DNA of 21,658 nucleotides, taken from a virus. A program made the position numbers and the translations under genes. The stretch lies in IMG/VR virus record IMGVR_UViG_3300032092_000298, positions 1-21,658 of that record; one strand, written 5' to 3'. Of this stretch, positions 9,538-21,658 are shown one piece after another. The notes below the pieces were generated by a model that saw only the letters and a program-made list of their open reading frames with translations, was not told where the DNA came from and did no database searches. The first letter of the stretch is position 1. Each line of letters opens with the position of its first letter.

Positions 9538-11355
9538 TCAGCGCTTTGTAATGAAACCACCTCTGGCTAGCTTTCGTGTAGCTTCTCTTGCTGTGTTAAG
9601 AGATTTGATAATGGGCTTGTCAGCCATAGCCCTTCCTTGTTGTGTCGAAGCATTTGACAACTCTTTCAATTTAACTCTAACATCTTCCAAAGCTTTAGCT
9701 TTCTGCACAGCACCCATGTCTTTAAGAATGGTAATAACGTCACCAATCTTTGATGCAGATATCTGATCAGAGAAAGAAACCAAGTTTGATTGATAGCTAT
9801 GGCCCAACCCCTTCTTAGCTGACACAGACTCAGCGCTGCCTAGCATTTCATTGGTTAAAGATTTGATTATGTTGTAAGTTAGGTATGCTGTTTTCCTGCG
9901 TTCTTTGATAGGGATGTTGTCATCGCTAACAATCTTGTTGTAGCCACGTAGCAATTCTCTCTCTTCTTTTATTTTCTGATTACGAGATACTGTGCTTTCT
10001 AACAGGCCTTTTCCATCTTTGCGAGTTGGTGTTGTTAATACTTCTTCAGCTATCTTAAGTTTCATTTGAGAAGAACTACCATTAAGCTTTAACTTATCTG
10101 CTTCAACAATGGCATCTTCTGTTTCATTGAAGGCTCCTCTAGGTAATGACAATGGTCGAACAACATTAGGGGAGCCGTTAATTGTTTGAGCAACTATGTT
10201 CAAGTCTTTAAAATCATAGTCTTTAGCTGGCATGTTAATGCGTTTAAACATGTAATCAGCATACGGCATTTCGGTGTAGACATAGTTTTCTTTATTATTA
10301 CCACCAAATTTTGGAGCGCTAACGCCAAGGCCAATGTCTTTAGTAAACGATGGAGCACCCACCTTCAACTCAGCGTGACCCGTCAAATATTGTTGAGGGT
10401 TCATAAAGCCTGAGTTTTTAACTCTCTCAATCTTTTCAGAAAGATTCCCATGAAACAACCTAACTGGTGGATCATTTTTGTACTTCTCTTTTAAGTCGTC
10501 ATACTTCTTTTGCAAAGACAAAGATAGTTTATAAAACTCTTCAACATCTTTTTCGTTGCTAGGGTCTGCTTCACGTTTGGCTTTTATACGGAAATCCCCC
10601 TGTGCCACTGCAACAACGTCTTCGTCAATGTCACGTAGCAACGGATTATTTGCAAGTTTATAGAATGACTTGTTACGGGCGTCTTTAATTTCAGACAACA
10701 CTTCATTGCGCTTAGCCATTGATGCTGTTCTTAAGTCTTTGCCTAGCACCCCTGTCAAATATTCACCAGAGTATTGAACCTCTTGCTCTGGAGCAACACG
10801 ACCCGCTGTTTTCTTTTCAATCTGACCAACAGGAATAGGGTTGCCCATGTCGTCGTATTTAACAATGGCTGTGTCAGCAACTTCGTAAGGCAGCGGTGGC
10901 AAACCTTTGTCTTTCTTCAACCCTAGAGTATCACCAGCATAGATGTGCAACATGTTGGCATAATCTTTAGGATCATTCTTAATCATGTTCTCAACTTCTT
11001 TAGCACCGAAGTCGCTAATAAGATCAGCCTTGCCTTTGACGTAGGCGTCTTCAGTGAATGGTCGAGTTGCTGGTGTTGCAGGTTTAACGATGGGCAATGC
11101 CTCTTCAGGCTGCTTTAACGGGGCTACAGGAGCCTTTGTAGCTGGTGCTGGTACAGGGATAGCTGCTTCTAGTAATGGAGGCACTACGGGCTTCTTAGCT
11201 GCAACAGGAGACTTGGTTAGCACCTTTGACATTTGATCAATGGCAGGAGATTCAAGCTCTTTAGAAACAATAGGCAAAGCCTCTTCTATATTCTTTGCAG
11301 AAAACTTAGCTTGTTGCTTCAGCCCTTCTTTTAACAATTGACGAACAATTGACAT
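9538..11355 (-). CDS. Large phage protein, probable virion/ejection component with possible ART-like segment, 605 aa
   Basis: I do not recognise the whole protein. The N-terminal 20 residues are basic. A Pro/Ala/Lys-rich flexible region (about 30-95) is flanked by two copies of EEALPIV (24-30 and 84-90). A mostly helical, charged region follows. Around 299-303 is RLFHG, and 336-338 is SFT within PSFTKDIGLG. This order resembles the R/H-x-x-G ... S-F-T elements of ADP-ribosyltransferase-like domains in phage polyvalent proteins, but a clear catalytic Glu motif is not evident. The C-terminus is helical and ends in ARGGFITKR. By eye it lacks cysteine. An AGGA lies about 11 bases before the ATG; the gap to the upstream gene is 2 bases. 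It is the last gene of the right-arm operon. Confidence 0.75.
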   Translation of the reverse strand: MSIVRQLLKEGLKQQAKFSAKNIEEALPIVSKELESPAIDQMSKVLTKSPVAAKKPVVPPLLEAAIPVPAPATKAPVAPLKQPEEALPIVKPATPATRPFTEDAYVKGKADLISDFGAKEVENMIKNDPKDYANMLHIYAGDTLGLKKDKGLPPLPYEVADTAIVKYDDMGNPIPVGQIEKKTAGRVAPEQEVQYSGEYLTGVLGKDLRTASMAKRNEVLSEIKDARNKSFYKLANNPLLRDIDEDVVAVAQGDFRIKAKREADPSNEKDVEEFYKLSLSLQKKYDDLKEKYKNDPPVRLFHGNLSEKIERVKNSGFMNPQQYLTGHAELKVGAPSFTKDIGLGVSAPKFGGNNKENYVYTEMPYADYMFKRINMPAKDYDFKDLNIVAQTINGSPNVVRPLSLPRGAFNETEDAIVEADKLKLNGSSSQMKLKIAEEVLTTPTRKDGKGLLESTVSRNQKIKEERELLRGYNKIVSDDNIPIKERRKTAYLTYNIIKSLTNEMLGSAESVSAKKGLGHSYQSNLVSFSDQISASKIGDVITILKDMGAVQKAKALEDVRVKLKELSNASTQQGRAMADKPIIKSLNTAREATRKLARGGFITKR

Positions 11356-11357
11356 AA

Positions 11358-14300
11358 TTAAATTCCTAAAGCTTTATTGGTTTGTTCAACTACACCACCA
11401 ACACTAAATGCTGGCAAGTCTTTAATAGCAGACTGATAGTCATATAGACTGTTGTAATCATTAGCCTCTTCTAGAGACACACCGTTTTCTCTTTTATAGT
11501 ATTCGTTGATTAACTTTCGATGGGTTAAAGGAAGCTTGTTAAACACAATCTTGTTATACTGAACTTCTTTTTCTGGAGTGAATTGCATATCATCCATAAC
11601 TTCTCTTCTAACCACATTAGCAGTTTTACGGACAGCTTCTGACATTACAATTTTCTTTTCTGCCAAAGATAATTTATTATATTCAAGATCAGCCATTACC
11701 TCTTTAATTATTGGGATGGTTTCTTTATTAGCTTTACGAATGAATGTATTATCAAACTCTTTATTACCAGAAGAAGGGCCATATAAAGAATATGGATTTA
11801 AATTTAAAGAAGTTATTTCCTTTTCTTCATTTGTTTTAGCCGGAGTTGTGCGTGTTGCGAACAACCTATTAAAAAACTCACCTTCTTTATAAATAACATC
11901 GCCTTCTTTTAATCTAGCAGAAGCTTCAGGAAGCGCTTCTTTTGCAATTGGAAGTTTAGACATAAGTCGTTGACCCGCCGCCTCACCAAAAGCACCAAAC
12001 CCTTCTCCTTCAATGACGTTAGGATCACGAGCAATTGTTCCATCTTTACGGAACAAATCTAGTATATCAAATCCTTGTTTCACAATAAAAGGTTGTGTAA
12101 ATCTTCCAATAAAATCACCAAGCACTTTACCGCCAGCAACGGCAGCAGCATCAGCTTCTTTCTCTGATGACATTGCGTTAATAAGTTGATCTAAGAAAAC
12201 ATTCTGCGAACCTGCTGGCATCTTTATACCAACAACAGCTTGGAAAGCTTCGGCAGTTTTAGCTGGTTCATCTTTATTAAGCTTAACCCAAAAATCAGCA
12301 ACTGCAAAATAGGGAGCTAGTGGGAAAATGGCACGAGTATCAATGACAGAACCGTTCCAACCTTTGACGTTATACCAATCGTCTTGTTGATTATCTTTGC
12401 GGTATTGAACGGCAGCGCCTAGTGCAGCAAAACCAACAGAACCTTGTGCAAATTTCATATTGGCTTGGCGAGTATGCATTGCCGCTTTAGCAAGATCGCC
12501 AGCTTTATCTGCAGCTTTAGCTAGTTGAAGTTCATTACCAATTCCTGCCCAACCAACAGGACTGTACTTATATTGGAATGCCATAGCATTTGCCATGAAC
12601 CGTGGAAACGGAATAGCCAAGCTTGAAAACGGAGTATCTTCAATTGTTTTAATAAGAGAAGACGCAGCGTTTTCACTCATAGTTTCAAAGCCACGCTTTG
12701 TTGAGTTATGATGTTTTGGGGCGTATGAGAAAGTTGTTTTGAGAGCATCATCCATTGCTCGTTTAACAACAGCAGTAGGTATGGCTTTATTCTTAGCTAA
12801 GAAATCTGTGTACATGTCCATACCTTGATCACGCAATTGTTTTTCAACAGATGCTGTGAACGAAGCTCTGCGGAATAAACCATCAACGGCAACGTTCAGT
12901 GTGTTAGCCCATCGACCAACTTTACTAATTTCTTTATTACCCGTTTCTTGCAATGCCGAAAATAAAGTATCACGAACAGTTGGATTAAATTTTAATATTT
13001 CATCAGCAGCTTCGGTTGCTAAACCACCATCTTTTAAATACTTCCAAGTACCAAGAGCATCAGCAAAAGAATCAGCAATAATCTTTTTAGACCTTCCGAA
13101 TCCTTTTCCAGTGACAGCATCCCTTACACCGGCACCAATTGCATAAGTAAAACCTTCAAGAAGCTGTGCTGCGCTTTGTGCTGTAATGCCAAGGGTAGTA
13201 CCAGCGGCGTTACGAGTGAGGGTATCTAAACCTGAAGTAACCCAAGCTTTAGATTCAGTTTCGCCACGTTTAACAAAATCCATAGCCTTTGCAAATCCTG
13301 TGACATATTCATCATCTTTCCCGTACAATGAATTAAACTGTTTCTCAAAAGCTGGATCAAGTCCTTTAAGAGCTTGCATCCATTTACCCATAATACCCAT
13401 GCTACCCAGCGTTCGACCAGCTTCAGACTGTGTGCTTACAAACATCCGAGCAAATTCTTCTTTGCTCTTTCCCATTTGTTGCAGACCCGCTTCAATAAAT
13501 GTTCCATCAAGAGCATCACTGTTTGCAAGAGTACGAGACAAAGCACTCATTGCGGTTTCACCGGGCTTTGGCATAAACTCAGGATTGTTTCTAATAATAT
13601 TAAACGCTGCTTGAACGCTTGTTCTGACCAGTTCGGTTTTAACTTTGCTATCAGTCAATACAGCAGCAGGATCAATTTCATCTGTGATTTGTTTGCCATA
13701 CAGTTTTGACATTTCCATAACAACATTATCCATGTTGTCACGAACAGGGTCGATGACGGCCTGTTCTAGTTGTGTAGGTGGTTGAGCAATGCTGCTGGAA
13801 ACCCCACTTCTGCTTTTAATAGCAGCGTCCAGTTTTCCTATGTATTTACTGGGGTCTTTGCTTACTGCTTTATAGCTACCCACCCCACTGACCGCCGCTG
13901 AAAACAATGACACTACAGCAAGTTCACCAATGTCAAGCTTAGGGGCTTCTTCACCCAAAGCAGTAGCTGTGGCTTGGTCTAGTCGTTGTTGTGTGTATGC
14001 GCCAATGCCACCAATCGCTCCTTCAGTAACGGCGCTAACTCCTGCCGCCTTACGGGCAACACTCTTCAACCCTTGTTCAGCAGCTTCTTTAGTTGCAGCG
14101 CTGGCAGCAATCTTTGCCGCTCCTGCAGTAACCGCTTTACCTACACCAAATCCAAAGTATGAAGCGGGGTCAGTGGCTACTGCAAATAGTGTATCAAAGT
14201 ATGGTCTAAAGCCCCCTTGACCACCTTCTTGAAACATACTTTTAGTGTTTTTAAATACACGCTGAGCCAATGCCGCTTTAGCAGCATCTTGTGCTGGAGC

Positions 14301-14762
14301 ATTCTTTATATATGCAAGCTCAGACACTGTTCCTAATGCCGTGTTCCAGTCTGTAAAGCGCATGTCATCCATGAAGTCTTTAACAAACTCTTCTTTGCTT
14401 TCGCCTTCTTTATAAACTTTATTGCGACGAACCTTTTGTGCGTCTTTAATAACTTCAAATAGTTCAGGCTTTTTTGATAACTCGTCAAAGCCAAATTCTT
14501 TTTCAAAATTAACAGACGGAGGTTTAACTTCTTCTAAAGATTTTGTAGATGAAGATGTTGCTCGTTGCCTATTCTTTATAGCAGTTTTTTCTTGTTCAGA
14601 AAGAAAAGATAAGGGATCAGAAATAGATGATACATTATTTTCTAACGATGATGCTGTTAAATTAGTTTGTGTATATGCTTCTGGTTTTTGTCGTTGTCTA
14701 TTTTTTATAGCAACTTTTTCTTCTTCAGAAAGAAAAGACAATGAATCAAATGTTGTAGCCAT
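11358..14762 (-). CDS. Giant internal virion (ejection) protein candidate, 1134 aa
   Basis: Size, composition and position suggest an ejection protein analogous to T7 gp16, which crosses the tail into the host envelope to help DNA entry. I see no lysozyme or transglycosylase active site. The N-terminus carries two copies of a motif, (D-S/P)-LSFLSE-x-EK-x-AIKNRQR, at 6-24 and 49-67, joined by a Ser/Thr/Asn linker. Residues about 188-300 are Gly/Ala-rich and hydrophobic (YFGFGVGKAVTAGAAK and following), a possible membrane or channel segment. Around 715-790 is a segment with IPFPRFMANAMAFQYKY, a pattern I recall from large phage structural proteins. It ends in FSVGGVVEQTNKALGI. No cysteine was found by eye. 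The flanking genes lie 2 and 5 bases away. Confidence 0.8.
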   Translation of the reverse strand: MATTFDSLSFLSEEEKVAIKNRQRQKPEAYTQTNLTASSLENNVSSISDPLSFLSEQEKTAIKNRQRATSSSTKSLEEVKPPSVNFEKEFGFDELSKKPELFEVIKDAQKVRRNKVYKEGESKEEFVKDFMDDMRFTDWNTALGTVSELAYIKNAPAQDAAKAALAQRVFKNTKSMFQEGGQGGFRPYFDTLFAVATDPASYFGFGVGKAVTAGAAKIAASAATKEAAEQGLKSVARKAAGVSAVTEGAIGGIGAYTQQRLDQATATALGEEAPKLDIGELAVVSLFSAAVSGVGSYKAVSKDPSKYIGKLDAAIKSRSGVSSSIAQPPTQLEQAVIDPVRDNMDNVVMEMSKLYGKQITDEIDPAAVLTDSKVKTELVRTSVQAAFNIIRNNPEFMPKPGETAMSALSRTLANSDALDGTFIEAGLQQMGKSKEEFARMFVSTQSEAGRTLGSMGIMGKWMQALKGLDPAFEKQFNSLYGKDDEYVTGFAKAMDFVKRGETESKAWVTSGLDTLTRNAAGTTLGITAQSAAQLLEGFTYAIGAGVRDAVTGKGFGRSKKIIADSFADALGTWKYLKDGGLATEAADEILKFNPTVRDTLFSALQETGNKEISKVGRWANTLNVAVDGLFRRASFTASVEKQLRDQGMDMYTDFLAKNKAIPTAVVKRAMDDALKTTFSYAPKHHNSTKRGFETMSENAASSLIKTIEDTPFSSLAIPFPRFMANAMAFQYKYSPVGWAGIGNELQLAKAADKAGDLAKAAMHTRQANMKFAQGSVGFAALGAAVQYRKDNQQDDWYNVKGWNGSVIDTRAIFPLAPYFAVADFWVKLNKDEPAKTAEAFQAVVGIKMPAGSQNVFLDQLINAMSSEKEADAAAVAGGKVLGDFIGRFTQPFIVKQGFDILDLFRKDGTIARDPNVIEGEGFGAFGEAAGQRLMSKLPIAKEALPEASARLKEGDVIYKEGEFFNRLFATRTTPAKTNEEKEITSLNLNPYSLYGPSSGNKEFDNTFIRKANKETIPIIKEVMADLEYNKLSLAEKKIVMSEAVRKTANVVRREVMDDMQFTPEKEVQYNKIVFNKLPLTHRKLINEYYKRENGVSLEEANDYNSLYDYQSAIKDLPAFSVGGVVEQTNKALGI
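14562..14747 (-). repeat. Duplicated 19-residue N-terminal motif in the ejection-protein candidate
   Basis: Two copies of D-(S/P)-LSFLSE-x-EK-x-AIKNRQR are encoded at 14691-14747 and 14562-14618, 43 residues apart, separated by a polar linker. 16 of 19 residues are identical. Confidence 0.9.
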
Positions 14763-14767
14763 ATCTA

Positions 14768-16429
14768 TTACATGCCAAAGGTTGAAAGAATTTTAGGCGT
14801 CCGTTGTTCTCCAAAAGAAGAAACGACACTGTCTTTAACTTTCTTACGAAGGTCTTCTTTAGCTTGCATCAGCGCAGAAAGGTCAGATTGCCGCCCAGCT
14901 TTAGCTGCAGTTAAATAGTCTAGTTCAGCTTTTTTGAATTGTTGAACCATCGGCATGATAGCGGCAGTTTTTTCAGCGTCTATTTTTTCTATAGTAGATA
15001 GGGGTTTAGTAGTGAACCCTGATGCTGGTGCAGCCTGTTGTGTAGGAGTAACGGGAGGTGGTTGTGTTACCAACTTTAATTCTTCTGGAGTTAAATTAAG
15101 CGTAGAAATATCTTGCTTTGCTTCCAACATTTTACGAGCAGCAGTCACAAGAGTTTGATCTGGAGCAGCAGCAGTCGATTGTTTTGATTTAGAACCAACA
15201 AAAAGCTTTCCACCTTCTTGATAAGTATTAACACCAGACGCAAAAAGCCACTGAGCGGCTTTAGCTGTTTTAACAGAACCATCAGCATTTAATGATCCAG
15301 AAAGGAGCAATGTCTCCTTAGCTCTGCGAGATTGAGCTTCTTTAATAATCCTTATGCCCTCTGGACTTTCAGCTCTAATAGGAGGACCGCCTTCTACTGG
15401 ATTTTGTACAACTTCAGAATCACCCCTCTTAAAAGTAACATCGTCCTTAGTTGATTTAATAACAAGACCCAAAAGGGATGCAATATTCTTATCAGTATCT
15501 TCTGGTTTTTCAGAAACTTTTATAGCAAGAGCATGCTCCCTTGCTCTATTAAGTTCAGCCTGCTGAAAGCGTTTGGCTTGCTTAACTTCTTCTGGAGAAA
15601 ACTTAGAAGGATTATTTAGAACTAAAACTGTTTTAGCTTTTTCTTGTAAAAGCTGTTTAGCATAATCTTCACCGTTTAATCGTTTCTCTTGAGCTAATTT
15701 TTGTTCAGCAATTACGTCAAACTTTTTAGTAGTTTCGTTAATTTTAGTTTGATCACCAGAAACAACCGCTGCAGTAACAGCAGATGCTGCTTCATTAAAT
15801 TGCTCATCTGTTGTTTTTATTTTACGCAGCCCTGCAAAATCAAATGATGCAGTAGAAACAGGAGCTTTCTCATTCAGCGCCTTTTGCATTTGTTCAGTGG
15901 TAGTGCCAAGAGCCAATGCTGTTTTCTCAGCAGCAGCCCTACCAGCGCTCTCACCAATCTGATCAAAGAAGCCCATTTGCTTTTTAGTGCTTTGCTCAGC
16001 AATCTTAGCTTTAAGTGTTGTATCAAGAGTGAGAGCTTGACCAAGATTTGTACGAGCAATATCAGGAGGATTACCAGTGGCAATCTTGATCATTTGGTCA
16101 GGGTCTAAGTTGCCAAAGTTAACATCACCCTTCTTAATGGCAGCAACAAGAAACTTCCTGTTGTTAGGACTACGAGCAAGTTCAGCTAGCTGTTCAGCAG
16201 AAAAGGTTTTACCACCAGCCATGTTTGTATAGTTTGATTGAATCAACTCCATTTCAGAAGCGGCTTCTTCAGCTTTTATTTTATTCTCTTCTTGAAGCTT
16301 AGTGTATTTTTCATACATGTTCTTTGTAGAAGCAATGGCAAACGTCTTAGCTTCTTTCTCAGCAGTATCCATCTTCTCTTCAATTGCTGTAGCAACACCA
16401 CCCGCAAATGATAACAAATTAAAACCCAT
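14768..16429 (-). CDS. Predicted virion protein, helical/coiled-coil, 553 aa
   Basis: I do not recognise this protein by family. It begins GFNLLSFAGGVATAIEEK, a short hydrophobic glycine-rich helix. This is followed by a highly charged helix rich in Glu, Lys and Ala (about 18-65), likely coiled coil. The middle is polar and helical (many Lys/Glu/Gln/Ala). Near 430-470 there is a Pro/Gln/Ala linker (QPPPVTPTQQAAPAS), then a final charged helix and QRTPKILSTFGM. No cysteine and very few aromatic residues are present. Size, the hydrophobic amphipathic N-terminus and position before the giant ejection-protein candidate fit a role like T7 gp15 (internal core), which is inference. The gap to the next gene is 5 bases, to the previous 3 bases. 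Confidence 0.75.
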   Translation of the reverse strand: MGFNLLSFAGGVATAIEEKMDTAEKEAKTFAIASTKNMYEKYTKLQEENKIKAEEAASEMELIQSNYTNMAGGKTFSAEQLAELARSPNNRKFLVAAIKKGDVNFGNLDPDQMIKIATGNPPDIARTNLGQALTLDTTLKAKIAEQSTKKQMGFFDQIGESAGRAAAEKTALALGTTTEQMQKALNEKAPVSTASFDFAGLRKIKTTDEQFNEAASAVTAAVVSGDQTKINETTKKFDVIAEQKLAQEKRLNGEDYAKQLLQEKAKTVLVLNNPSKFSPEEVKQAKRFQQAELNRAREHALAIKVSEKPEDTDKNIASLLGLVIKSTKDDVTFKRGDSEVVQNPVEGGPPIRAESPEGIRIIKEAQSRRAKETLLLSGSLNADGSVKTAKAAQWLFASGVNTYQEGGKLFVGSKSKQSTAAAPDQTLVTAARKMLEAKQDISTLNLTPEELKLVTQPPPVTPTQQAAPASGFTTKPLSTIEKIDAEKTAAIMPMVQQFKKAELDYLTAAKAGRQSDLSALMQAKEDLRKKVKDSVVSSFGEQRTPKILSTFGM

Positions 16430-16432
16430 GAT

Positions 16433-16948
16433 TTATACGCCTTGTTTAATATTACGAGCCATCAAACCTTTTACCGGTACAGCTTTTTCTTCAACAGCTT
16501 TAACCTCTTCAACTGGTTCTTTAATTGTTTTAAACACTTTATCAATTGCTTGTTTCATAACCCGAGGAGACATTGTTTCTTCTTTATCATAATCTGAGTT
16601 GTAATCTTTAACATCAACTCCATGAATCATGGCAATGGTTTTCATCATTTCCATCATGATGGGCATAGCTAAGATGCCAGCATCAATTGTATGAATACCT
16701 TTATCAACATTGGTAAGCATCATGCCTTCAGCAATTACAGACAAAGGCAACTTTGTTTCTAGCGTGTCTAACAAGTCATCACTAATATCTTCAGAAGAAA
16801 TAACTGCCATGTAAAACTGAATAACATCAGTTAGCTTTACATACTTTGGCGGGTTCTGCCACGGCCTACTCTTATCAGGAGCAGTCCATGATATTCCAGC
16901 AGGTGCTGCCATGAGCACTTCACTTGGTTTCTTTTGAGTTGTTGCCAT
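16433..16948 (-). CDS. Conserved-looking phage structural-operon protein, 171 aa
   Basis: Function unknown. The sequence contains PPKYVKLTDVIQFYM, then LLDTLETKLPLSVIAEGMML, then GIHTIDAGILAMPIMMEMM, a Met-rich hydrophobic helix. I recall small proteins with a similar VLE-x-x-(V/L)P ... GLHT-(V/I)D-x-GI-x-x-x-PI layout beside structural genes in uncultured marine phage genomes, without assigned role. The C-terminal ~40 residues are Lys/Glu/Val-rich and likely disordered. A segment around 90-108 could associate with membrane, but it is methionine-rich and may simply be a helix of an oligomer core. It is separated by 1 base from the upstream gene, so translation is probably coupled. Confidence 0.75.
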   Translation of the reverse strand: MATTQKKPSEVLMAAPAGISWTAPDKSRPWQNPPKYVKLTDVIQFYMAVISSEDISDDLLDTLETKLPLSVIAEGMMLTNVDKGIHTIDAGILAMPIMMEMMKTIAMIHGVDVKDYNSDYDKEETMSPRVMKQAIDKVFKTIKEPVEEVKAVEEKAVPVKGLMARNIKQGV

Positions 16949-16949
16949 G

Positions 16950-17171
16950 TTATTTCTTTGCCTTCATAAGTTCATCACGAGCTTCTCGGATGCCTTCAAT
17001 GTAATCAGCAACAAGTTCTACAGCATCTTTTTTGCTAACAGGAGCTTGATTACTTTTCTGTTCAGCAGGCGCAGCAAACCCTTTTGCTGACTTTGTTTTC
17101 TTAGCTGCTGGAGACTTACGCTGAGCTAAGATGTTTTCAATTTTACTAAAGTAACTTTTAATATGTTGCAT
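16950..17171 (-). CDS. Small basic protein, 73 aa
   Basis: Unrecognised. It has a short amphipathic N-terminus (HIKSYFSKIENILAQRK), a Lys/Ala/Pro-rich flexible middle (about 18-45), and a C-terminal helix with ELVADYIEGIREARDELMKAKK. The ATG at 17171 is preceded by GGAAAA at suitable distance. It lies between the giant repeat protein and the 171-aa gene in the same operon. The lysine-rich middle could bind nucleic acid or be a linker; nothing decides this. Confidence 0.68.
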   Translation of the reverse strand: MQHIKSYFSKIENILAQRKSPAAKKTKSAKGFAAPAEQKSNQAPVSKKDAVELVADYIEGIREARDELMKAKK

Positions 17172-17206: not shown

Positions 17207-20200
17207 TTAAGGAAGAAGACCTTTTATAAACCTTTCAGCAGCATCAGAGGTAACTACTTTACCAAGCAATGAACCAAGAGCGGTATTTGCCGCAGCGTTT
17301 GATGATATGCCTGCAGAAGCCATTGTAGCGTTTGCTGTAATTGTTGTCTGAGCAATGTTGGTTATTCGGGTTTGCTCATTCTCGCCAGATGCATATGAAA
17401 ACTGCAGCAAGTCACGATAGGTTTGGCTTTGCTGTGCATAAACAGAAGCTGACAAATCAGTAGCATTCTTTGCCATAACAGCGTTAGCACTGTTGATGGC
17501 AGCGGTGTTGGCTGTAGAAATATCTGCTAAGATTTTAGAATTGGCAACATTAATCTGTGAAGTTAGTGTTGCATTAAACTCATCACGAGCGTTTTGTTGT
17601 GTAGCATTAAACTTAGCAATTTCATTTGAGGCTGCTGTATTTGCGATGGAAATCTTGTTTATTTCAGAGGCGTTAAACTGATTAGCTGTCAAAGCAAGTG
17701 TTTCAGAAATCTTATCAGCTTCAAGCTTATTGGCAGCGTTCGTAGCCTTAGCAGCATTTGCAGCAGCAGTATCGCTTAGGATGGCTTGTGAAATTGTCTG
17801 TGTTTTAAGAATAGCCATTTGCTGAGCATTATCCAAGTTCTTCATATCAGTTTCAAGGAAGGCTTTAGCATTCAACACAGCCGCCTGTTGGCGATTGTTT
17901 AGATTAGCCATATCCATTGTAGCCATAGTTGCTGCGTTTGCCAGAGCCGTTGCTTGTTCATTGTTTAAATCAGCAACATTAATTTGTTGAATGAAAGTTG
18001 CATTAGCCAAAGCTTTCTGTTGATCTGCTGTAAAATTAACATTAGCAATCTCAGACACACGAGCAGCATTAGTAATGTTAACTTGTTGTTTGTTGCTTAA
18101 CTCTTGACCAGTTAGTGCTGCGTCAATTTGAGCATTAGCCAAAGCTGCCTGCTGCTTATTAGACAGGTTGGTTGTTTCAATCTGCAAAGCATTGGTGGTG
18201 TTGAACATCTTTGTCTGCTGCTCAGCATTCAAGTTTATATTGCGCTCTGCCAGTTTAGAAGACACATTGAACAAAGACGTTTGTTGTTGATTAGACAACA
18301 CTTGTCCTTTAAGGGCGGCATCAGCGTTGTAGGTGGCAATAAAAGCTTGTTGTTGTGCGGAAGCATCAATACCAGCAGCTTCAAAGTTCTGTGTGCTTTG
18401 CAGCACTGCCATCTGTTGTTCGTTAGTAAGCTCTTGTCCCTGCAGAGTTGCCCTAACTTGCAGATTAGCCAACGCTGTTTGTTGGTTATTGGACAAGTTA
18501 GCCATATCAACCTGCATCTTATTGGTGCTGTTAGCCAACATCGTTTGCTGTTCAGCATTAAGATTTATATTGCGTTCTGCTAACTTTGAAGACACATTAA
18601 ACAACTGAGTTTGTTGTTGATTAGACAACACTTGTCCCTTAAGCGCAGCGTCAGCACTAAACGTAGCGAGGAAAGATTGTTGCTGTGCGGAAGCATCAAT
18701 GCCAGCAGCTTCAAAATTCTGTGTACTCTGAAGCACCGCCATTTGCTGTTCGTTAGTAAGTTCTTGTCCTTGAAGGGTTGCTGCAACTTGCAAATTAGCC
18801 AATGCTGTTTGTTGATTATTAGACAAGTTAGCCATATCAACCTGCATCTTATTAGTGCTGTTAGCCAACATCGTTTGCTGTTCAGCATTGAGATTTAGAT
18901 TACGCTCAGCCAACTTGGAAGACACGTTGAACAATTGTGTTTGTTGTTGATTAGACAACACTTGACCTTTGAGGGCGGCATCAGCCGTAAAGGTGGCAAT
19001 GAAAGATTGTTGTTGTGCTGTGGCATCAATCTGTGCAGCTTCAAAGTTCTGTGTACTCTGAAGCATTGCTGCTTGTTGTTTATTAGTAAGTTCTTGCCCT
19101 TGAAGAGCCGCCCTTACTTGCAAATTAGCCAATGCCGTCTGCTGAGCGTTAGACAAGTTAGCCATATCAACTTGCAAGTTATTAGCACTGTTAGTCAACA
19201 ATGCTTGTTGCTCGTTAGACAAGTTAATCTTACGCTCTTCTAACACTGAAGACACATTAAACAACTGAGTTTGTTGTTGATTAGACAACACTTGTCCTTT
19301 GAGGGCAGCAGCAGCTTGAGCATCCTGCATGTAAGCTTGTTGCTTATTAGTCGAAGTAATCTGCATTGCCTCAAAAGCTTGAGTGCTAGTGATCATTGCT
19401 GTCTGTTGTTCGTTAGTAAGTTCTTGACCAACAAGAGCAGCCCTAACTTGCAGATTAGCCAACGCTGTTTGTTGACGTGTGCTTAGCTTTGTTAAATCAA
19501 TTTGAAGATTCTCAGCAGAGCGTTGCATAAAAGATTGCTGTGAGTTATTCAAATTGATGTTATTAACTTCAGCAAAACGTGCAGCGTTAGTCAGAGCAAC
19601 CTGTGTCTTAACATCAAGATTCTTTTCCTGAGCAGCAGTTTTTAATTGAGCATTAGCCAATACAACAGCTTGTTGATTACTTAGTATCTGTCCTTGCAAA
19701 GCAAAAGCGTTGGTGCTATTCTGCAAAGCAACTTGCTGACGGTTGTTCAGGTTAGCTAAGTCCATGTTCTGCAAAGCAGCAGCATTAACCAAAGACACTT
19801 GCTGACGATTGCTCAAATTCGTTATTGCCATTTGAGAGAATGTCTGTGCATCAGCAGCAGCAATCGGCATAGCGCTTTCCATAGCCGCTTGTACAATGGC
19901 AGCACCAGCCATAGAGCTAGCACCAAGACCACGAGCAGCCATTGCGGCATTAGCATTGCGTATAGCACCAGCAGCCCATGCAGGGGTGCCATCGTTGAAC
20001 TGAGCCATCAGTGAAGACATCTGCCCAGCAACAGTGCTAGCGGCCTCTACAGAGCCTTGCTGAGCCGTTGCCAGCGATTGACTAAAGCTACCCTGCTGGG
20101 CAGTTGCTACAGCAGCCTTATCAAGAGCAGCCATTGTGGCAGCAACAGCTTGAACAGGTTCGTTTAGCTGCAGGTTTTGTTTAGAAACATCTACCAGTTC

Positions 20201-21658
20201 TTGTTGGGTAACAGCGCGTTGTGCAGCAATGGCAGTGGATGATGCAGCCGTTTCAGCAGCTATGGCTTCAGGAATAACACCAGCTTTAGCAGCGGCTTGT
20301 ACAGCAGTAGTAGTAGCTTCAGCAGACTTAGTAGCGTCTAGTTGAAACTGAGTGGCTGCAACAGCCGCTGGTGTTTGACCAGCAAGAGATGCACCAGTAA
20401 TGGCTTTAGCTGCAGCAGCTTTAGCAGCAACCGCTTGTTCTGCAGTGTCAGCTTTAGCAGCTTGTTCAACCAACGTCTTCTCAATTTGAGCAGCGTTGGC
20501 AGCGCCTAGAACATAGCCAGTTGCTGCTAGTGCTTCCGGTGTCACACCAAGCTGATTAGCTTTCATTATGAAAGCAGGATTAGCTTGAGCAGCTTTAGTT
20601 TGTACAGCAGTGTCAGCTTTAGCAGCTTGTTCAACCAACGTCTTCTCAATTTGAGCAGCGTTGGCAGCGCCTAGAACATAGCCAGTTGCCGCTAGTGCTT
20701 CAGGTGTAATACCAAGCTGATTAGCTTTCATTATGAAAGCAGGATTAGCTTGAGCAGCTTTAGTTTGTACAGCAGAGTCAGCTTTAGCTGCATCTTCTAC
20801 AATGGTGTCTTCAATTTGAGAAGATTTAGCTTCGCCAAGTTTATAGCTTGTAGCAGCAAGCGCTTCAGGAGTCACATCGAGCTGTGCAGCCTTAGTAATA
20901 AATTCTTTATCGGTTGTCTGAGCTGTAGCGGTTTTAACACCACCAACATCTGCAAGTGTTGCAGCCTTTGCCTTTTGACCATCCGTTAAAACAAGATCAG
21001 GAGTTTCTGCAATTTTTGCTGCTGTGCCAGCAGCAGCTTCTGCTTTAGCTCCTGCTGAAACTTCACCAGTTTCTGCTGTGGTTTTAGCTTCTTTAGATAC
21101 AAGACCACTAGCTGCTGTTTGTTTAGCTAATGCAGTATCAAGAGTACCTTTAGAAGTATCTGCTTTAATAGTATCTTCAACTATATTGGCTGGCATTGAT
21201 GATGTGTTAGCACTACCTGTTATAGAAGTACTAGCCATTGAAGCATCAGTAGGAGCAGGCGTTGATTCTGCTTTTAAACCAGAAGCCGTGGTATCTGTCT
21301 GAGCAGCAGTGTAGCTTGTTCCACCCGGAACTGATGGGTTACCCGTAGTAGGTAATGTTGATTCACGAGTTTTTAAAAGAGGAACAGCAGTATCAAATGT
21401 TGGAGGAATGTATTTAGTAACTGGAGTTTTGGTAACAGGGTTTGCTTCTAATGCTGCTTTAACCGATGCATCATCTGGTAGATATTTTTTTAAACCAATA
21501 GCAACATCTTCTTCAGAAAATCCCTTGTTACGTGATGCTTCAATAGCACTTTTAATTTGTGCGGGTGTGTAGGTAGTAACGGGTGGAGTAACAACAGTAG
21601 TGGTTGGTGGCACAACAGGGTTTAACGTTATGCTCTCATTTGGAAACCACTTGTCGCC
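17207..21658 (-). CDS. Giant repeat-rich virion protein, 5' end outside window (at least 1483 aa)
   Basis: The frame is open to the window edge, so the true start lies beyond it; the GTG at 21613 is probably internal. Counting from the window edge, residues 1-240 are Thr/Ala/Pro-rich and low in complexity. About 241-405 hold three 55-residue repeats, two nearly identical. About 405-600 are Ala-rich with a conserved-looking MAARGLGASS (573-582). Residues 614-1295 are 31 uninterrupted 22-residue repeats with the core LSN-x-QQ-x-x-L-x-N. A less regular Asn/Ala-rich tail with FNA motifs ends in ERFIKGLLP. No cysteine was seen. I recall similar NLSNRQQ-repeat proteins in marine phage genomes next to structural genes; an ejection or tail-associated function is inferred. 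It heads the visible right-arm operon. Confidence 0.82.
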   Translation of the reverse strand, partial: GDKWFPNESITLNPVVPPTTTVVTPPVTTYTPAQIKSAIEASRNKGFSEEDVAIGLKKYLPDDASVKAALEANPVTKTPVTKYIPPTFDTAVPLLKTRESTLPTTGNPSVPGGTSYTAAQTDTTASGLKAESTPAPTDASMASTSITGSANTSSMPANIVEDTIKADTSKGTLDTALAKQTAASGLVSKEAKTTAETGEVSAGAKAEAAAGTAAKIAETPDLVLTDGQKAKAATLADVGGVKTATAQTTDKEFITKAAQLDVTPEALAATSYKLGEAKSSQIEDTIVEDAAKADSAVQTKAAQANPAFIMKANQLGITPEALAATGYVLGAANAAQIEKTLVEQAAKADTAVQTKAAQANPAFIMKANQLGVTPEALAATGYVLGAANAAQIEKTLVEQAAKADTAEQAVAAKAAAAKAITGASLAGQTPAAVAATQFQLDATKSAEATTTAVQAAAKAGVIPEAIAAETAASSTAIAAQRAVTQQELVDVSKQNLQLNEPVQAVAATMAALDKAAVATAQQGSFSQSLATAQQGSVEAASTVAGQMSSLMAQFNDGTPAWAAGAIRNANAAMAARGLGASSMAGAAIVQAAMESAMPIAAADAQTFSQMAITNLSNRQQVSLVNAAALQNMDLANLNNRQQVALQNSTNAFALQGQILSNQQAVVLANAQLKTAAQEKNLDVKTQVALTNAARFAEVNNINLNNSQQSFMQRSAENLQIDLTKLSTRQQTALANLQVRAALVGQELTNEQQTAMITSTQAFEAMQITSTNKQQAYMQDAQAAAALKGQVLSNQQQTQLFNVSSVLEERKINLSNEQQALLTNSANNLQVDMANLSNAQQTALANLQVRAALQGQELTNKQQAAMLQSTQNFEAAQIDATAQQQSFIATFTADAALKGQVLSNQQQTQLFNVSSKLAERNLNLNAEQQTMLANSTNKMQVDMANLSNNQQTALANLQVAATLQGQELTNEQQMAVLQSTQNFEAAGIDASAQQQSFLATFSADAALKGQVLSNQQQTQLFNVSSKLAERNINLNAEQQTMLANSTNKMQVDMANLSNNQQTALANLQVRATLQGQELTNEQQMAVLQSTQNFEAAGIDASAQQQAFIATYNADAALKGQVLSNQQQTSLFNVSSKLAERNINLNAEQQTKMFNTTNALQIETTNLSNKQQAALANAQIDAALTGQELSNKQQVNITNAARVSEIANVNFTADQQKALANATFIQQINVADLNNEQATALANAATMATMDMANLNNRQQAAVLNAKAFLETDMKNLDNAQQMAILKTQTISQAILSDTAAANAAKATNAANKLEADKISETLALTANQFNASEINKISIANTAASNEIAKFNATQQNARDEFNATLTSQINVANSKILADISTANTAAINSANAVMAKNATDLSASVYAQQSQTYRDLLQFSYASGENEQTRITNIAQTTITANATMASAGISSNAAANTALGSLLGKVVTSDAAERFIKGLLP
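17774..19819 (-). repeat. 31 tandem 66-bp coding repeats (22 residues each)
   Basis: The coding strand can be cut into 31 consecutive units of exactly 22 codons with no insertion or deletion. The core is (N/E/V)LSN-x-QQ-x-x-L-x-N. By eye, 28 of 31 units have QQ at positions 6-7; units 3, 4 and 29 depart. The second half of each unit is more variable. The 22-residue period equals two 11-residue turns, which suits a long alpha-helical or right-handed coiled-coil rod. Confidence 0.93.
18302..19621 (-). repeat. Higher-order 330-bp repeat, four copies
   Basis: Within the 22-residue array, units 4-23 form four blocks of five unit types (110 residues, 330 bp), recognisable by the recurring VLSNQQQT, NLN-x-EQQ, NLSN-x-QQTALANLQV, ELTN-x-QQ and LKGQ endings. 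The two blocks at 18632-18961 and 18302-18631 differ at only about 6 of 110 residues. The block furthest upstream is the most diverged. Confidence 0.88.
20442..20936 (-). repeat. 165-bp direct repeats (55 residues), two near-identical and one diverged
   Basis: The blocks 20442-20606 and 20607-20771 differ by only four bases when aligned by eye. A third, diverged copy lies at about 20772-20936. In protein they read as TPEALAATGYVLGAANAAQIE units within the Ala-rich part of the giant protein. The near-identity points to a recent duplication. Confidence 0.9.

Follow-up and report, generated by a model that had tools for sequence, protein, structure and literature searches.

Among podoviruses, ejection proteins occur as gp14/15/16-like triads whose order and sizes have been tabulated (PMC8954989), and gp20-24 of phage SU10 are present in virions and missing from emptied particles (PMC9509320). 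The protein analysed here has its relatives in HMO-2011 phage1322_25 (ADW08438) and its homologues in the CRP phages, HTVC103P/104P/115P, phiM6, RHph_N3_19, CHOED and MQM1, all of which bear a 'hypothetical' label or a wrong name. Matching pieces are 29-50% identical, and a domain preceding a repeat array, the QQ repeat units themselves, an 11-mer segment and a downstream gene block are common to all, but these relatives carry 2, 3, 4, 6, 9 or 11 units versus 31 here. An 11-unit homologue (MW202701.1, L005:6936-9527) is labelled 'huntingtin' in the public record, a name that probably arose in error from its Q-rich repeats. We found no virion proteomics in the literature on HMO-2011-type phages.

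The window, i.e. the whole stretch of 21,658 nucleotides that was analysed, is a 21.7-kb virus contig. Its plus strand encodes a polymerase (phrog_1252, 3e-186), an exonuclease, a class II RNR and PhoH, and tblastn returned homologues in HMO-2011, Roseobacter CRP, Pelagibacter HTVC, Sinorhizobium phiM6 and Rhizobium phages. This gene content marks the window as part of an HMO-2011-type podovirus genome in which replication genes adjoin an HMO-2011-like structural block. The plus strand also holds an RNA ligase (PF09414, 5399-6295), an HNH endonuclease (PF01844, 4867-5235) and the N-terminal domain of a dATP/dGTP diphosphohydrolase (PF18909, 4335-4697). A search of 84,980 bacterial and archaeal genomes yielded only five relatives of the repeat protein, all on contigs binned into metagenome-assembled genomes (MAGs), a scarcity that is as expected for lytic phages. 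Two phage contigs (62,825 and 55,371 bases; L223-L226) recur in both Flavobacteriales and Neomarinimicrobiota MAGs, so their binning is unreliable.

Features of the repeat-protein locus and its downstream block (window coordinates)
Feature	Position	Strand	Remarks
Repeat-protein ORF	17207..21658	-	1483 residues within window; homologous ORFs in ~150 distinct phage sequences
N-terminal region, residues 1-527	20078..21658	-	Ala/Thr-rich; length and sequence differ among relatives (alignment)
Conserved pre-array domain, residues 528-613	19820..20077	-	...TPAWAAGA-R-ANAAMAARGLGASSMAGAAIVQAAMESAMPIA...; AlphaFold2 pLDDT low, 40-60
31-unit array, residues 614-1295	17774..19819	-	Per unit: predicted helix (positions 4-19) and loop (20-22, 1-3)
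Units 1-5, fixed leading quintet	19490..19819	-	Unit typing
Units 6-10, variable quintet copy 1	19160..19489	-	Unit typing, block comparison
Units 11-15, variable quintet copy 2	18830..19159	-	Unit typing, block comparison
Units 16-20, variable quintet copy 3	18500..18829	-	Unit typing, block comparison
Units 21-25, variable quintet copy 4	18170..18499	-	Unit typing, block comparison
Units 26-31, fixed six-unit closing block	17774..18169	-	Position and sequence match whole HMO-2011 six-unit array
Post-array segment, residues 1296-1416	17411..17773	-	11-residue register; predicted long continuous helix, low-moderate confidence
C-terminal tail, residues 1417-1483	17210..17410	-	Peptidase_S74 replaces or extends tail in CRP-3, CRP-235, CRP-738
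73-residue protein, second gene of conserved block	16950..17171	-	Named-phage gene order
171-residue conserved protein, gp14-sized	16433..16948	-	Conserved PGxSLT...PW..PPKF motif
553-residue block protein, gp15-sized	14768..16429	-	Order and size
1134-residue block protein, gp16-sized	11358..14762	-	Order and size

As the repeat-protein ORF has no upstream stop inside the window, the N-terminus lies beyond the window edge and the protein comprises at least 1483 residues. A common plan recurs throughout the family: the pre-array domain, the QQ units, the 11-mer segment and a short C-terminal domain, preceded by variable N-termini. A 16-residue spacer (PIAxxDA...) that is retained in nearly all relatives links the pre-array domain to the array, and the ~121 residues that follow the array contain conserved QFN 11-mers (QFNAxxxNQxx repeats) in the family alignment. 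The N-terminal region of the window protein harbours a 55-residue (165-base) tandem repeat of its own (20435-20884; 2.1-2.7 copies, the first copies matching at 96%). The family had been thought undescribed in function, and Pfam and PHROGs indeed offer no model for the array and nothing useful for the family. A match of the CRP-3 homologue to phrog_6121 ('virion structural protein') was rejected as a sign of homology, as it vanishes once the Peptidase_S74 (S74) domain is removed.

The array is exactly as the sequence-only reading described it: 31 consecutive units of 22 residues with zero indels. The LSN-x-QQ core that had looked invariant proved so in its QQ pair (Q6 in 30/31 and Q7 in 29/31 units), whereas L, S and N are consensus residues (L2 in 26/31, N4 in 22/31 and likewise N12 in 21/31), position 3 being S, N, T or D in all 31 units and position 21 a G in 12 and an N in 5 of them. 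Self-identity reaches 0.273 at a lag of 22 residues (z=14.8 versus 500 shuffles) and 0.617 at a lag of 110 residues (z=42.9 versus shuffles). Tandem Repeats Finder reported only the corresponding 330-base super-repeat in the array, because the single 66-base units are too diverged for it to detect. The 682 residues contain no Pro, Cys, Trp or His and are slightly acidic (37 K+R versus 47 D+E). An 11-residue register was detected in the post-array segment only, not within the array; 33- and 55-residue spacings, which were considered as 11-residue quanta within the array and rejected, lie mostly in or near that segment. Neither the continued register of this segment nor the five-unit super-repeat had been remarked on in the sequence-only reading. 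The strong selection on unit length that had been proposed also holds across the family: full units make up 150 of 151 related arrays, and loss of register, which the sequence-only reading had named as a result that would count against it, was found solely in L161, owing to a 2-residue deletion in one unit.

When units were typed against the window, long arrays displayed one architecture throughout: units 1-5, then n quintets of types 6-10, then units 26-31. Long arrays accordingly have 11, 16, 21, 26 or 31 units, and those of the HMO-2011 clade have 6, corresponding to the closing block. Altogether, 150 of 151 distinct arrays with at least six units contain 6+5m units (m=0-5), L161 again being the sole exception. 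This count leaves out arrays from outside the lineage [Pelagibacter phages (9 units), Slicky01 (4), CRP-3/CRP-738/phiM6/N3_19 (3) and CHOED/MQM1 (2)], and in it ~12 arrays that had been measured as far as an 11-mer beyond their end were shortened by 33 residues by rule, three of them being checked by eye. The rule was derived from the first loci and then applied to a held-out, separate scan, in which 46 of 47 new distinct arrays conformed. A quickly built maximum-likelihood tree of the flanking regions requires no fewer than 22 changes in length within the set of arrays with ≥11 units, every one of them a five-unit step. Total array length is not conserved, since the nearest relative (L159), with flanks 88% identical to those of the window protein, has 16 units versus 31. 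Two irregular cases were noted besides: at L038:9373 onwards an array runs into unrelated sequence after 15 units, possibly at a chimeric contig end, and CRP-9 and CRP-207 (L045 and L046) have exactly 11 residues fewer at the pre-array/array junction than their sister phages.

The quintet blocks of the window differ from each other by a dS of 1.0-1.5 at a dN/dS of about 0.06-0.27, values by which they are old and under purifying selection. Quintets that have diverged further still keep the five-unit phase, as in L031 and L041, where the blocks are merely 40-42% identical. The longest exact word common to two quintets of one array has a median of 14.5 bases and is below 60 bases in 31 of 32 cases, which makes assembly collapse or inflation of the repeats unlikely. 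We propose that whole quintets would be gained and lost, most likely via in-phase recombination between quintets of 40-90% protein identity. The single variable quintet of L159 resembles quintet 1 of the window at its start and quintet 4 at its end, one example that fits what in-phase recombination would be expected to leave behind. Since homology peaks at five-unit offsets, recombination alone could suffice to produce the quintet rule; a structural need for quintets is a possible alternative or additional cause. The 6+5m lengths thus pose a sharp constraint by which a purely recombinational cause can be separated from a five-helix structural module.

Given residues 528-1483 and a 22-sequence alignment, AlphaFold2 predicted for each unit one 16-residue helix (positions 4-19) followed by a 6-residue loop, with a pLDDT mostly of 79-93 in the array, and ten units modelled alone reached a pTM of 0.79. 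QQ sits in the first turn of the predicted helix, and the S/T/N/D-x-x-Q pattern would fit a helix capping box. In all four variable quintets the fifth helix is predicted to span 12 residues versus 16-17 elsewhere, such that five units may constitute a higher-order module in which four helices are regular and the remaining one is short. A BFVD homologue (56% identical) adopts a different overall shape (TM 0.18), hence the global superhelix modelled over the full array is unreliable. Foldseek found no fold match in the PDB (best E 0.034 for the whole model and 0.084 for ten units, TM ≤0.35), nor did sequence searches of the PDB match the family or its three neighbour proteins. The top structural matches, the designed helical repeats or α-solenoids DHR76, DHR8 and 8erw, resemble the array in having short helices and loops in tandem, but they differ in that they consist of two-helix repeats (E ≥0.08, TM ≤0.35), as opposed to one helix per repeat and a five-helix module. 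As five is an odd number, each added quintet would invert a simple up-down helix stack, and this together with the poor match to two-helix solenoids suggests another arrangement of the predicted helices. A β-solenoid with 22-residue coils and N/Q ladders was ruled out by composition and prediction. What is new in these results, and open to testing, is that a repeat predicted to have one helix per unit has evolved in steps of a quintet.

In the named phage records examined, compared with the table in PMC8954989, the repeat gene lies beside tail genes in a block with gp14-, gp15- and gp16-sized proteins. On one side it is flanked by genes for tail fibres or lysis; on the other, after up to a few small genes, come those for proteins of ~165-190, ~400-900 and ~820-1670 residues. 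In the window, the repeat gene is followed by genes for proteins of 73, 171, 553, 1134 and 605 residues. The 605-residue protein (9538-11355, minus strand) has no Pfam or convincing PHROG match, is absent from this place in several relatives and may be an additional component of the virion or of the injected material. At C-termini, Peptidase_S74 was found in CRP-3 and CRP-235 (Pfam) and in CRP-738 (alignment), and a Pfam search of the window protein returned no such domain; the CRP-235 homologue (L051:4318-6849) also carries an N-terminal peptidoglycan-binding LysM domain (PF01476, 8.7e-11). A gene for a HlyC-type toxin-activating lysine acyltransferase (PF02794, E=1e-15) adjoins or lies near the repeat gene of HTVC115P (L043:7312-7758) and is also annotated in CRP-235 (L051) and CRP-738 (L052), making acyl modification of a virion protein possible.

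We favour, at a probability of about 0.48, a joint reading in which the repeat protein is a modular virion protein, predicted to be all-helical, that would gain and lose quintets and act internally in DNA ejection. It would be the first product of the block with the gp14-, gp15- and gp16-sized proteins, exit the head via the short tail and then refold in the cell envelope, where it may line a DNA conduit or act in it as an extensible spacer; the array would determine the reach, and the conserved flanking domains would provide the contacts. The ejection role is plausible, resting by analogy on gene order and sizes, the LysM and S74 fusions and composition, an array free of Pro, Cys, Trp and His being compatible with threading and refolding. 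Judged by its gene neighbours, a trans-envelope conduit or internal virion protein, as suggested from the sequence alone, is still the likeliest role, but profile comparisons of the repeat protein with T7 gp14 and, outside S74, with the 7-11 ejection protein found no relationship.

The sequence-only reading had also entertained an α/11 helix through the array and a tape-measure-like ruler, neither of which fared well. A continuous hendecad (11/3) coiled-coil rod of ~100 nm has several observations in its favour (22 is 2 x 11, charged residues have a period of 22/6, spacings between unit matches across homologues are mostly multiples of 11, and the post-array segment keeps its 11-residue register in a predicted long helix), yet AlphaFold2 interrupts the helix in every array unit with good confidence, position 3 is always of the N-cap type, position 21 is often Gly or Asn, and the hydrophobic power in the helix band (6.2) falls within that of shuffles (maximum 8.7), so we consider such a rod improbable. 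That unit number sets a tail or head dimension is more doubtful by far, and we give it very little credence: the exact unit length and long helical array are broadly reminiscent of tape-measure proteins, but podoviruses lack a tube-like tail that could be measured, unit counts of relatives from short-tailed phages span 2-31, the window and L159 differ by 31 versus 16 units despite flanks that are 88% identical, and unit number is unrelated to contig size (Spearman 0.22, p=0.27, or -0.02 after subtracting the array, for IMG/VR contigs of unverified completeness).

Contig size bears likewise on the idea of an internal packing protein, a core or scaffold component associated with DNA or the capsid, that would stay behind on ejection; its length would be expected to track genome size, a correlation not seen with these contigs of unverified completeness. 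The slight acidity of the array does not favour DNA binding either, and we therefore hold this role to be rather improbable, even if a large, Ala/Gln/Asn-rich, low-charge helical protein encoded in the structural module would suit it. A tail component on the outside of the virion, be it a fibre, needle or collar protein, with the array as an extended stalk and a C-terminus that binds or is chaperoned like that of a trimeric fibre, strikes us as a stronger candidate, if still an unlikely one. Tail-fibre genes lie directly upstream of the repeat gene in HMO-2011 and the CRP phages, fibre stalks usually vary in length among phages, and three relatives terminate in Peptidase_S74, a self-processing chaperone domain typical of trimeric fibres; however, S74 also terminates the DNA-ejection protein of Salmonella phage 7-11, the repeat gene travels with the downstream block and not with the variable fibre genes, nothing resembling a receptor-binding domain is present at the C-terminus of the window protein, and helix-loop repeats are predicted instead of the usual β-rich or trimeric coiled-coil stalk.

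Within the favoured ejection reading, a bolder and on balance unlikely version holds that one helix per 22 residues and five helices per turn make up a new architecture, an extensible ejection tube or tether with a reach tuned by whole turns; lengths would then jump only by five units because whole turns are added or removed. The natural series of 6, 11, 16, 21, 26 and 31 units provides a ready-made experiment in which array length can be set against DNA-conduit reach across cell envelopes.

Profile comparisons with known ejection proteins linked the repeat protein neither to T7 gp14 nor, outside S74, to the ejection protein of phage 7-11, and revealed no homology of the 171-, 553- and 1134-residue neighbours to 7-11 gp022-024 or of the latter two to T7 gp15/gp16. 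The likeness to T7 gp14/gp15/gp16 and P22 gp7/gp20/gp16 lies in how the genes of the three downstream proteins are ordered and how large these proteins are, whereas the T7 and P22 ejection proteins have no counterpart of the tandem array, the profile comparison covering T7 only. The ejection protein of the 7-11/phiEco32 group (phrog_4287; SU10 gp20-24) is encoded at a comparable position, at the start of the ejection-protein cluster or close to it, and, in 7-11, has S74 in common with three members of the repeat-protein family, but it differs in having no 22-residue array. As the direct tests of homology were negative, we word the relation by analogy: the repeat protein plausibly works like these ejection proteins, as opposed to being a member of their families.
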